Shown piece after piece: positions 232-62,935 of a stretch of DNA of 64,000 bases (position 1 is its first letter; every line of letters begins with the position of its first letter). The notes under the pieces were generated by a model, which saw only the letters and a program-made list of their open reading frames with translations, did not search any database and was not told where the DNA came from. This DNA is from Meghimatium bilineatum (taxonomy: Eukaryota; Mollusca; Gastropoda; Stylommatophora; Philomycidae). The position numbers and the translations under genes are program-made. The stretch is from the NCBI GenBank assembly GCA_034231615.1, contig CM067316.1:27456093-27520092 (forward strand), written 5' to 3'.

Positions 232-290
232 CTTAAATCCTGTCCATTATCATCTGAGGAAACGTCGTCTATATGGACTTGATCACATTC
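232..290 (-). CDS. eya: eya exon 'E', Eya domain
   Basis: A 59-nt exon with acceptor TTTTTTTTGTCAG and donor AAG|GTGAGT. It encodes ECDQVHIDDVSSDDNGQDL plus two bases of a Ser or Arg codon (phase 2). This acidic block is one of the most conserved stretches of Eya proteins and directly follows the FFNDLE end of exon D. The following exon (expected to begin near TYNF and lead to the GGVDW region) is not present between base 1 and 231, so it lies outside the window. Confidence 0.96.
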
Positions 291-3215: not shown

Positions 3216-3949
3216 TACAAATTGCTCAAAATACAATGAATGGGCTTGAGATTATAAAAAAACAGGAAAGCTCACACGTTGGAGATGTGAACATATGTAA
3301 GGATTTGTCTTCACCTGAGGTATTTGCTCAGGGGCGGGTAAACTATCTGACCTTTCATTGGATAGTCATGATTTTGTAAACACTTCATGTATAGAGCATA
3401 CCACAGCGTTAGACAAAAACATGTAGTGTGTTGTGGACGATTAATTATTCATTACATATTGTGGTACACATCTAGAGATCCATGTTGTGTGTACAACCAA
3501 CTCTTGCGGTCCAATATCCATGACTATATCAGTGTATCCAATATTACTCTACAAGCAACCCATGCCACACTGATGCCTCTGTGACTAGATACGTTCGCAG
3601 TGCTTGATCCTTCACAGAATATAGAGATGCATTATGGATTATGCAGAGATATGTAGAAACAAAGAGAAATCCACTATCACAGAGATATGTAGAAACAAAG
3701 AGAAATTTCATGAAAATTGTATTTAAATTAATTGTTTCAGTTTACTATGTCAGCTGGAATCTACATAAAATCTTTCGTGATACATGGGCTGTGACATAGG
3801 ATGTCAAAGTGACTGAACTGCCACGCTTAAGACATATGTGTCAAATGAAAAGGTCCCAGGTACTGATATAAGCCAAGCTGCAAATACAGCTCATAGCATC
3901 CTCGGAAGTACATCCTGGTAAAGACAAGTGTTTCAGAATGGACTTAAAA
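3216..3949. other. Intronic DNA, nothing recognised
   Basis: No conserved frame. A short direct repeat (GCAGAGATATGTAGAAACAA-like, twice) occurs at about 3640-3705. Confidence 0.4.
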
Positions 3950-5630: not shown

Positions 5631-5835
5631 TGAAGATGGAGAATATCTTTTTTCGTTCATATAAAACAGTCCTTTCTCTAACCAAGCATATCTACGTCCC
5701 TGGTATTTAAGACATCTAGATAACTGTTTATAAAATAGACTAAATACAACATGACAGTATTCCTTCTGTATTCATAAGCACACTCTCGAGCACGAGGGTG
5801 CGGGAATAAAATTCAGTTTTAAACCAATACATAAT

Positions 5836-7023
5836 ATGTTACCGTGTGTTGGGTATGTTGTTTTTGTAGTGTGTGTCGATCGATCCATATTCAAAATGGG
5901 AAGAATGCAAACACTTGGCGAACGCAGAGACACAAAAGTACTAATTCAGGCAGAAAAGTTTCAGTGTATGCCAAGTCATCCAATGAAGGAAAGATTCCAA
6001 AATCTAGCAATGGGACGATTGAAAAGAAGCAGCTTTATTCATCAAGCTAAACGACTCCGCAGACAACTTACAGACCTACCTGAAGTTGACAGCCCCTTAA
6101 GACCTGTACCAGAACAAACCACGTGGAGTGAAAGACATGGAATGCCAATATACATTCAGACCCATGTTAAAGGAATACTAAGCGAGGACGAACAGAACAG
6201 TGTGCAGCGAAGGACAGTCACCCTCAGTTTCCTGGATGAGGAATATCCACAAGATATATGGGTCAGAGTATACACAGATGGGTCAGCACAGAATGCCGTG
6301 AGGAATGGAGGTGCAGGTGTATATATAGAATATCCACACAAGCCTAGAGATACAATCAGAACACCGACAGCAAAATTCTGCAATAATTATGATGCAGAAA
6401 TCCAGGCAATTAGTGTGGCAGCTAAAAAACTGCTGAACTCCAACTCTGACCTACAGCCTGTGGTATTCCTGACAGATGCAAGGTCTGTGCTTCAAGCTCT
6501 CCAGTCTGGAAAACTAACAGACTTGAAAAAACTACTTAGCGAATTGTCTTACCAGTATAGGGTAACCATGCAGTGGATACCCTCTCACTGTGGAATACCT
6601 GGAAATGAAAAAGCAGACCAACTGGCTAAGGAAGGTGCTGCCGAAGACCAACCAGATATACCAATCACCTACTATCTGAAAAAACAGATGATCAAGTCAA
6701 TAAGAAAGCCACAAACACCAACACAAGATGACTATCATATTATGAACAGACCAGAACAAGTTATAATTCTACGTCTCAGAACAGGACACAACCGACTCCG
6801 CAGTCACATGTATACAAAGTTCAAGATTGGCAACACAGCCATGTGTACATGTGGACAGGCAGCACAGAGTGCCAAACATATACTTCAAGAGTGTTCTGAG
6901 CATGAAACGCTGAGGCAGACATATTGGCCAGAGGAAACAACACTGGAATCAAAACTCTATGGGACACTGTATGAACTACAAAAGACAGTGAGTTTTATTA
7001 AGGAGACAGAATTACAGATATAG
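5836..7023 (+). CDS. LINE ORF2 C-terminal fragment with intact RNase H domain
   Basis: A 395-codon open frame. Recognisable element sequence starts at the internal ATG at 5896 (MGRMQTLGERRD); the first 20 codons are probably flanking sequence. RNase H motifs are complete: VYTDGS (Asp) at about residues 140-145, NNYDAEIQAI (Glu) about 183-192, FLTDARSVLQAL (Asp) about 212-223, and WIPSHCGIPGNEKADQLAKEG (His and final Asp) about 247-267. A Cys/His tail follows (RLRTGHNRLRSH, CTCGQ, KHILQEC). This arrangement is typical of I/Jockey-group LINEs that carry RNase H after the reverse transcriptase. The RT and endonuclease parts are absent, so it is a 5'-truncated copy, but the open frame suggests a young insertion. 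It is not a host gene and lies in the eya intron between exons E and D, antisense to eya. Confidence 0.9.
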   Translation: MLPCVGYVVFVVCVDRSIFKMGRMQTLGERRDTKVLIQAEKFQCMPSHPMKERFQNLAMGRLKRSSFIHQAKRLRRQLTDLPEVDSPLRPVPEQTTWSERHGMPIYIQTHVKGILSEDEQNSVQRRTVTLSFLDEEYPQDIWVRVYTDGSAQNAVRNGGAGVYIEYPHKPRDTIRTPTAKFCNNYDAEIQAISVAAKKLLNSNSDLQPVVFLTDARSVLQALQSGKLTDLKKLLSELSYQYRVTMQWIPSHCGIPGNEKADQLAKEGAAEDQPDIPITYYLKKQMIKSIRKPQTPTQDDYHIMNRPEQVIILRLRTGHNRLRSHMYTKFKIGNTAMCTCGQAAQSAKHILQECSEHETLRQTYWPEETTLESKLYGTLYELQKTVSFIKETELQI

Positions 7024-9869: not shown

Positions 9870-9959
9870 CTCTAAATCGTTGAAAAATAGATGTGTGTCT
9901 GCCAAGTTAAAGATGATCTCCTCCATTCTCAGACCCATTGACATGGAACCTTGCGGATC
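9870..9959 (-). CDS. eya: eya exon 'D', Eya domain
   Basis: A 90-nt exon, exactly 30 codons, phase 0 at both ends, with acceptor ATATTCCTAG and donor GTTAGT. It encodes [19 protein letters not shown] followed by [11 protein letters not shown], a near-perfect match to the conserved Eya-domain block that follows GSYA.RY in all Eya proteins. Joined to exon C it gives an uninterrupted Eya domain start. It is separated from exon C by an intron of about 21 kb filled with minisatellites and LINE/SINE remains. Confidence 0.97.
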
Positions 9960-29719: not shown

Positions 29720-30045
29720 TAAGACAATCATTGTCACATAGTAGACAGGTGGATGAAGACAATCATTGTCACATAGTAGACAGTTGGACGAAGACAATCA
29801 TTGTCACATAGTAGACAGTTGGATGAAGACAATCATTGTCACATAGTAGACAGTTGGATGAAGACAATCATTGTCACATAGTAGACAGTTGGACGAAGAC
29901 AATCATTGTCACATAGTAGACAGTTGGATGAAGACAATCATTATCACATAGTAGACAGTTGGATGAAGACAATCATTATCACATAGTAGACAGTTGGATG
30001 AAGACAATCATTATCACATAGACAGTTGGATGAAGACAATGACAA
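29720..30045. repeat. 35-bp minisatellite with a palindrome in each unit, about 9 copies
   Basis: Units: GAAGACAATCATTGTCACAT plus AGTAGACAGTTGGAT. GACAATCATTGTC is a perfect inverted repeat about its central C. A related array is at 31965-32335. Confidence 0.95.
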
Positions 30046-30289
30046 CAATTAACATTAGTTATATTTACATCTTTATTTTATGATTTAAACAAAAAAAAAT
30101 TGGTGTTTCTGATGGAAACTAACTGCATAGTTCACAGTTACACAGTTGCACACCAATTATCAACTAACTGCACAATTCATGGCTGAAGAGCTTCACACTA
30201 ATCATCAAAAATGAAGAAAAATATTTATGAAGTGTTCAAAAACTAATAGGACAATAAAAATGACAAGCACAAACATAGTATTCTAAATA

Positions 30290-30970
30290 TCTTTGTGTGT
30301 CTTTTATCATAATACCCTAATTGCATTAGTGTATTTTTGATTATAGTACCCTAAATACCTTAGTCTTGGTGCACTATTGATTATAGTATCCTATTTATCT
30401 TAGTATAACTTTCATTTATAGTGCCATATTCAACTAGTCTATCTCTGATTATAGTGTCCTAAATATCTTAGTGTATCTTTGATTATAGTGTCCTACTTAC
30501 CTTAGTGTATCTTTGATTATAGTGTCCTATGTACTTACATTAGTGTATCTTTGAATATAGTGTCCTATGTACTTACATTAGTGTATCTTTGAATATAGTG
30601 TCCTATGTACTTACATTAGTGTATCTTTGAATATAGTGCCCTATGTACTTACATTAGTGTATCTTTGAATATAGTGTCCTATGTACTTACATTAGTGTAT
30701 CTTTGAATATAGTGTCCTATGTACTTACATTAGTGTATCTTTGAATATAGTGTCCTATGTACTTACATTAGTGTATCTTTGAATATAGTGTCCTACTTAC
30801 ATTAGTGTATCTTTGATTATAGTGTCCTACTTACATTAGTGTATTTTTGATTATAGTGTCCTACTTACCTTAGTGTATCTTTGATTATAGTGTCCTACTT
30901 ACCTTAGTGTATCTTTGATTATAGTGTCCTACTTACCTTAGTGTATCTTTGATTATAGTGTCCTACTTAC
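30290..30970 (-). repeat. Minisatellite made of the eya exon C 5' splice site, about 20 units
   Basis: On the eya sense strand each unit is CAAAGATACACTAAGGTAAG plus TAGGACACTATAAT (34 bp) or a 38-bp version with ACTAATGTAAGTACATAGG. The first unit overlaps the last 16 bases of exon C and its true donor. Four further units near the exon have the identical CTAAG|GTAAGT; about nine have AAT|GTAAGT. Units farthest from the exon (30290-30470) are the most diverged. Confidence 0.95.
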
Positions 30971-31125
30971 CTTAGTGTATCTTTGAGCATATGATCCAGT
31001 GAGCAGTGAGTGGAAAATAATAATTGTTTCATCCAAATCCCAGACAAACACACGCTCAAGGTCTGACTCAGGTCCAGGGGAAGGTTGTGTTCTACTTCTA
31101 CCTCTGGGACGGGGCACTCGTTGCC
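30971..31125 (-). CDS. eya: eya exon 'C', linker and catalytic motif of the Eya phosphatase domain
   Basis: A 155-nt exon with acceptor CCCACTTGTAG and donor CTAAG|GTAAGT. Two bases complete a Gly codon from the previous exon, then 51 codons follow: an Arg/Gly/Pro-rich linker ([18 protein letters not shown]), then [19 protein letters not shown] and [14 protein letters not shown]. The DLDET motif holds the nucleophile Asp and the general acid/base Asp of the HAD phosphatase site; both are present, so this segment looks functional. The exon ends in phase 0. It is bordered on its intron side by an array of about 20 tandem units derived from its own last 16 or so bases plus the donor site (30290-30970). 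Confidence 0.97.
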
Positions 31126-31959: not shown

Positions 31960-32335
31960 ATAGCTGGATGACGACAATCATTGTCACATAGGTGACAGTT
32001 GGATGATGACAATCGTTGTCACATAGGTGACAGTTGGATGAAGACAATCGTTGTCACATATCTGATGGATGAAGACAATCGTTGTCACACAGTTGACAGC
32101 TGAATGAAAACAATCTGTCACATATCTGATGGATGAAGACAATCGTTGTCACACAGTTGACAGCTGAATGAAAACAATCTGTCACATATCTGATGGATGA
32201 AGACAATCGTTGTCACACAGTTGACAGCTGAATGAAAACAATCTGTCACATATCTGATGGATGAAGACAATCGTTGTCACATAGCTGAGAGTTGGATGAA
32301 GAGAACCGTTGCCATATAGTTGACAGCTATGTTTC
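31960..32335. repeat. Minisatellite related to the 29.7-kb array, with 65-bp higher-order unit
   Basis: Begins with 34-36-bp units (GATGACAATCGTTGTCACAT), then alternates with a shortened unit (TGAATGAAAACAATCTGTCA) in a 65-bp block repeated three times. Confidence 0.93.
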
Positions 32336-37728: not shown

Positions 37729-37828
37729 NNNNNNNNNNNNNNNNNNNNNNNNNNNNNNNNNNNNNNNNNNNNNNNNNNNNNNNNNNNNNNNNNNNNNNNN
37801 NNNNNNNNNNNNNNNNNNNNNNNNNNNN
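37729..37828. other. Assembly gap of 100 N
   Basis: Exactly 100 undetermined bases, the usual placeholder for a gap of unknown size. It lies in the eya intron that should contain the unseen exon. Confidence 0.99.
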
Positions 37829-37839
37829 TTATTTTCTTC

Positions 37840-62280: not shown

Positions 62281-62388
62281 CCAGCGTACCTGACTAGTAT
62301 ATCCTTCAGCATGTGGTACCTGACTAGTATATCCTTCAGCATGTGGTACCTGACTAGTATATCATTCAGCGTGTAGTACCTGACTAGT
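62281..62388. repeat. 30-bp minisatellite, left part
   Basis: TACCTGACTAGTATATCCTT plus CAGCATGTGG; about 3.5 copies before the SINE insertion. Confidence 0.95.
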
Positions 62389-62650: not shown

Positions 62651-62935
62651 TACCTGACTAGTATATCCTTCAGCATGTGGTACCTGACTAGTATGTCCTA
62701 CATCATCTGGTACCTGACTAGTATATCCATCAGCATGTGGTACCTGACTAGTATATCCATCAGCATGTGGTACCTGACTAGTATATCCTTCAGCATGTGG
62801 TACCTGACTAGCATGTCCTTCAGTGTTTAGTACCTGACTAGTATGTACCTATATCATCTGGTACCTGACTAGTATGTCCTACAGCATGTGGTACCTGGCT
62901 AGTATGTACTACAGCATGTGGTACCTGACTTTGAC
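62651..62935. repeat. 30-bp minisatellite, right part
   Basis: About nine and a half further units of the array at 62281, more diverged to the right. On the minus strand each unit contains CAG|GTA. Confidence 0.95.

Follow-up and report, generated by a model that had tools for sequence, protein, structure and literature searches.

The minisatellite of the human gene IFI6 (6-16) has a 12-nt unit that keeps the reading frame, and its extra donors add amino acids. It is described as supplying multiple splice donors (PMC4526556, PMC3618361), and the use of two downstream repeat units gives three mRNA species (PMC4526556). In human ABCA7, a VNTR of intron 18 spans the donor of exon 18, with a C-rich unit of 25 bp present in about 12 to 427 copies (PMC5954066). 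As far as that account goes, one unit is kept through a second donor at 2 ± 1%, independent of array length, and this donor shifts the frame and leads to a premature stop. Array length is associated positively with skipping of exon 19 and negatively with expression; for one brain region, the alternative forms jointly exceed the normal form in the majority of samples (PMC5954066). A model by Rogers proposes intron gain through tandem duplication of AGGT-containing sequence (PMC4974935). A literature search for eya together with a minisatellite found no report.

The stretch of DNA analyzed here (the window) spans 64,000 nt of contig C19 of Meghimatium bilineatum (C19:27456093-27520092), in a genome of 1.61 Gb and 32 contigs. 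Three eya exons lie on its minus strand (31125-30971, 9959-9870, and about 290-232), and a tandem array is contiguous with the 3' end of the first of them. The features are listed below, a slash marking the splice junction.

30971..31125, minus strand: eya exon encoding DLDET, 155 nt; acceptor ..CCCACTTGTAG/GG, donor AAG/GTAAGT
9870..9959, minus strand: next eya exon, 90 nt
232..290 (approximate), minus strand: third eya exon, encoding ECDQVHIDDVSSDDNGQDL..
30953..30986, minus strand: unit 1 of the array; the final 16 bases of the exon (TCAAAGATACACTAAG), then GTAAGT as the real donor, then 12 bases of intron
30851..30952, minus strand: units 2-4, each equal to unit 1 across 34 bp; donors at 30936, 30902, and 30868
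30517..30850, minus strand: units 5-13 with AAT/GTAAGT; two of 34 bp and seven of 38 bp carrying a 4-bp insertion
30483..30516, minus strand: unit 14, identical to unit 1; donor at 30500
30273..30482, minus strand: units 15-20, diverged; GTAAGT in 0/6, +5 G altered in 6/6

The first of these is a real eya exon. In a phmmer search of PDB it matched EYA3 (E 7.7e-15) and EYA2 (E 1.5e-14); the short exon alone had no match in Pfam. DLDET is the catalytic motif, and the exon terminates with QRYTK in phase 0. It ends at 30971, the GT of the donor starts from 30970, and AAG joins /GATCCG in phase 0. The intron leading to the exon at 9959 is about 21.0 kb long. Elsewhere in the window, a 422-residue open frame with an RNase H domain (5755-7020, plus strand; PF00075, E 1.8e-16) is probably part of a non-LTR element, the element type being a guess, and a run of 100 N at about 37730-37830 represents an assembly gap.

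The original prediction regarded the real donor as the first of about 20 units on the same strand, four more of them with AAG/GTAAGT and about nine with AAT/GTAAGT. Our own unit cutting gave 20 tandem units of 34 or 38 bp between 30986 and 30273, beginning with the real donor, and the counts of four and nine were confirmed. TRF called the same array at 30324-30986, with 18.5 copies of 34 bp. GTAAGT occurs 14 times on the array strand, the real donor included: five AAGGTAAGT donors (the real one at 30970, and 30936, 30902, 30868, and 30500) and nine AATGTAAGT donors between 30834 and 30538. The remaining 20.3 kb of the intron contain two GTAAGT. With 14 such sequences in the first 0.7 kb, the array might be seen as a set of U1 sites shielding the 21-kb intron from premature polyadenylation, and AATAAA is indeed rarer in the intron in sense than in antisense orientation (12 vs 26). 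However, the sites cluster at the intron start instead of being spread along it, and ATTAAA is alike on both strands (13 and 12), which makes such a protective role very improbable.

Given the high minisatellite coverage of this region, it is unremarkable that an array should touch an exon edge. In the window, 50 merged arrays with a period of at least 10 cover 19.4% of the sequence. In 20,000 random rotations (the ends of the third exon being entered one base off), one or more of the six known splice sites fell inside an array in 56% of cases, and in 21% one or more came to lie 20 bp or less from an array edge. The special feature of the eya array is its donor content, rather than its contact with the exon edge: AGGTRAG occurs at least twice on one strand in only one of the 50 merged arrays, namely this one. 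The arrays at 29721-30040 and 31965-32326 belong to one unit family (GGATGAAGACAATC.TTGTCACATAG) and flank the eya exon. At 62651-62930 (minus strand), a 30-bp array has CTAGTCAG/GTACC in most units and CTAGTCAG/GTAAGT in the last one (62653); no exon was recognized at this array, and its unit family is shared with 62286-62388.

Use of the next C19 donor is predicted to add 34 nt and to bring in an in-frame TAA following V S R T L, reproducing the stop after five codons that had been proposed earlier. Since this stop sits in the first added unit, all 13 extra GTAAGT (13/13), as well as a weaker GTATTT at 30358, predict one identical truncated end. Computed U1 pairing amounts to -10.3 kcal/mol for AAG donors and -5.1 kcal/mol for AAT donors, and four extra donors equal the real one in this respect. 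Masking of the donors by RNA structure was considered and rejected: a 296-nt piece reaching from the exon through the fifth donor had a z of +1.8 relative to shuffles, 197 of 200 shuffles being at least as stable. Likewise, a recursive splice site with a zero-length exon was dismissed, the pyrimidine fraction being 0.375 to 0.44 in the 16 bases before the three donors inspected.

A protein search of the genome located another eya gene, on contig C18. Its exon encodes QRYTK and ends CACCAAG/GTATGT, and an array begins its intron. Exon matches place one intron after identical residues in both eya genes. The commonest C18 unit (GTATGTGGGCTTCTATATCAAAGATACACTAAG, 33 bp) belongs to an array with at least eight copies of the junction, the real one counted. 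The resemblance between array and exon end was checked in this paralogue and is present there too. In the 16 exon-derived bases, the commonest C18 unit and the C19 unit are identical (16/16). The 17 to 18 intron-derived positions differ by five mismatches and a 1-base gap, and past the donor hexamer their similarity was equaled in 65 of 5000 shuffles. The C18 units that were read are open in frame, and the first three extra donors predict VCGLLYHRYTK, followed by VCGLLYQRYTK repeats. A dispersed mobile element or introner was rejected as the source of the units: with up to three mismatches, the C19 unit core (a 31-mer) was found at eight or more places in the 1.61 Gb and the C18 core likewise at eight or more, all within their home arrays; these counts are lower bounds, the best candidates having been scored.

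The derivation of the C19 array from the 5' splice site of its own exon, as first proposed, is supported by several observations. QRYxK, which is conserved, is encoded in the repeated segment, and the array of the second eya gene is likewise built on that exon end. The reverse order, in which an intronic array came first and its sequence was then copied onto the exon end, is very unlikely. Differences between the eya genes in the final 17 codons are all silent; they affect 8 of the 12 upstream codons and one of the last five, those of the repeated stretch. Conversion between array and exon could produce such a pattern, although the difference is weak (Fisher 0.13). QRYxK, however, fits the Eya of other animals (EYA3 QKYGK), so the exon sequence is very likely older, and the C18 exon differs today from its own array.

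The mode of growth only partly follows the original prediction, which described a divergence gradient, worst far from the exon, and repeated growth from the exon edge. Distance does rise along the C19 array (Spearman 0.78, 20 units), but not monotonically: unit 14 (30516-30483) stands at zero, being identical to units 1-4 despite nine variant units between. Growth from the exon edge accounts for units 2-4 at most, and we infer that the block with AAT and 38-bp units must have multiplied within the array. In C18, the exon ends CACCAAG whereas most units read CACTAAG, and with ACC in the exon and ACT in the array, the exon is no longer the template of that array. In units 15-20, the donor hexamer is changed at 15 of 36 positions, compared to 27 of 168 in the rest (Fisher 0.0013, the units not being independent). 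As these units share ancestry, the excess may be taken as a hint only, and an ancestral donor with T at +5 would give the same pattern.

Repeated donors were also searched for in the rest of the genome. Triple AGGTAAGT repeats were found at 3622 places, compared to 3869 for the reversed pattern, and the AAGGTAAGTA version at 169 places, compared to 307. These numbers are places and not arrays, one long array yielding many places, and by genome-wide place counts there is no excess of donor-motif over reversed-motif repeats. Such a lack of excess is expected if no process specially makes donors repeat, and special amplification of donors was rejected on these counts. Among the matches listed (C1 and the start of C2), 25 of 26 distinct arrays were read. 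The array L046 adjoins a dynamitin-like exon, with three donors and 23 repeated exon bases (Pfam E 8.4e-5, 22.5 bits against a curated cut-off of 31.8; PDB dynactin subunit 2, E 0.051). L048 adjoins an acetylcholine-receptor-like exon (DEKNQILMLSVWLRQ) with 12 donors; its homology is weak (tblastn E 0.012; second match in PDB, E 1.1; no match in Pfam). L039 is exon-like with seven donors and had no match in Pfam or PDB. Exon status is ambiguous for L011, L012, L021, and L040, as is the first unit of the long arrays L013 and L028, and no exon evidence was seen for the other 16 of the 25. A test for an acceptor and an open frame was passed by 6 of the 25 donor arrays and by 959 of 8470 random AG (11%); against this background, the test alone proves nothing. 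L021 (C1:21347317) deserves a separate mention: its 49-bp repeat has both CTCTTGCAG and AAAG/GTAAGT in the unit, like a tiny exon repeated with its own splice sites.

Kinase genes served as a further sample, with 135 domain matches, the downstream junction being read in 27 and one more inspected. None of the 23 short-exon matches had its donor inside an array (0/23, by TRF and by eye); at L091, an array starts about 17 bases past the donor. Among the four longer exons (L056-L059), one has a donor array. This exon, L057, has at least 45 copies of CTATGTTGATGAG/GTAAAC, starting at its edge and extending almost to the limit of the sequence analyzed there; use of the second donor is predicted to preserve an open frame, and use of the third to lead to a stop. 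The paralogue of L057 is L056 (95.5% protein identity across 200 residues). Its exon ends similarly (CTATGTCGGCGAG), and its intron opens with the shared GTAAACATTT, which is not repeated there. L056 thus presents a matching junction free of any array, a contrast that favors the junction as the source of the L057 array and speaks for the same kind of origin in eya. L082 has, where its match ends, a 21-bp array of donor-free units; it was left out of the counts, the exon end being ambiguous. For the other 25 of 30 kinase loci, the scan was by TRF only. By this kinase sample, exon-edge donor arrays are not common. Many of the kinase matches are paired on different contigs, C11/C13, C16/C25, C6/C20, C14/C22, C18/C19, and C23/C24, and the eya pair lies on C18/C19; this pairing suggests an old genome duplication.

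The presence of an array in both eya genes argues for an old array or for a repeat-prone junction. The array, or a proneness to form one, may predate the eya duplication, each copy having been homogenized separately. Alternatively, the two arrays could have arisen independently after the duplication from one conserved exon end, an origin that we consider possible though tentative and that concerns the source of the arrays only, being compatible with their tolerance by the gene. The C18 unit is 33 bp long with the donor GTATGT and the C19 unit 34 bp with GTAAGT; the intron-derived parts differ, and identity of the exon end suffices for the shared exon part. Besides, the kinase pair, with an array in L057 and none in L056, indicates that arrays can arise after duplication, or vanish. 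Two chance strikes on one exon are nevertheless unlikely given the frequencies among kinases, unless the junction is prone to repeat, and the intron-derived parts are alike to the degree given by the shuffles, though homologous introns would match too.

With roughly even confidence, these sequences can be regarded as minisatellites born from real exon/intron junctions, mostly tolerated and not a dedicated switch, the length of the array possibly affecting nearby splicing. The eya junction would have been tandemly duplicated and have grown into an intronic minisatellite, every unit thereby copying the last 16 exon bases, with a GTAAGT donor still present in 14 of 20 units. Most transcripts would use the exon-proximal donor, presumably because exon definition pairs it with the upstream acceptor; the extra donors would leak at a low level. 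Leakage in C19 would meet the stop five codons on, giving decay or a truncated Eya, and leakage in C18 would give in-frame inserts of 11 residues. Some points weigh against tolerance. A neutral array would not readily be expected to persist in both eya genes with its donors intact. Moreover, an intron-proximal donor could be favored, four extra C19 donors matching the real one in U1 pairing.

The same persistence would suit a maintained regulatory element, in which competing donors tune Eya dose or activity through forms with a stop (C19) or an insert (C18). The single stop predicted by every extra C19 GTAAGT would suit such a role as well, and the nine AAT units, weak with U1, would form a graded set beside the strong donors. 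The correlation of ABCA7 array length with next-exon skipping and expression, as that report gives it, points in the same direction. We nevertheless find this role improbable: the outcomes differ between the paralogues, stop in C19 and open frame in C18, a like architecture is present in other genes, and the six most diverged C19 units have no donor, with the hexamer changes given above for non-independent units. More doubtful still is that both eya arrays are an old, retained device for splice choice, with graded donors metering truncated Eya in C19 and inserting VCGLLYQRYTK-type repeats in C18. If this were true, the fast-mutating array length would act as a dial on the dose and form of Eya, and other genes of this genome would use the same device.

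Work on how the spliceosome selects one 5' splice site from several identical ones usually relies on built constructs. The genome analyzed here supplies natural examples, in which 3 to at least 45 near-identical donors follow one another at nearly regular spacing. It also offers two contrasts between paralogues, the array being present in both eya genes but in one kinase only, and the frame outcomes differ. In addition, a coding exon can seed a minisatellite, which is a route for repeat growth to alter a developmental gene.

Minisatellites of this kind are already known from ABCA7 and IFI6. As in the published description of ABCA7, the C19 array lies at the 3' end of the exon and includes the real donor, and its second donor is predicted to lead to a frame shift and a stop. 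If eya is mostly tolerant of its array, donor choice would be expected to behave as in ABCA7, where the association of longer arrays with more skipping and lower expression means that such arrays need not be harmless. In contrast, the ABCA7 unit as reported is 25 bp long and begins at the GT, whereas the eya units of 34 or 38 bp carry 16 coding bases; eya further differs from that account in the exact donor nonamer, present in five C19 units, and in the occurrence of an array in each of the two genes identified. Compared with the IFI6 reports, the C18 gene, with its in-frame unit of 33 nt, is the closest in resemblance, while extra donors of the C19 gene would run into a stop. In eya, as in the Rogers model as outlined, splice sites are multiplied by a tandem duplication that crosses an exon/intron boundary, but the extra eya donors lie within an existing intron and no new intron was seen. 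What is added here to these known systems is a paralogue with an array of like build, a kinase gene, probably other genes, and a genome in which repeated donors show no excess over reversed motifs.
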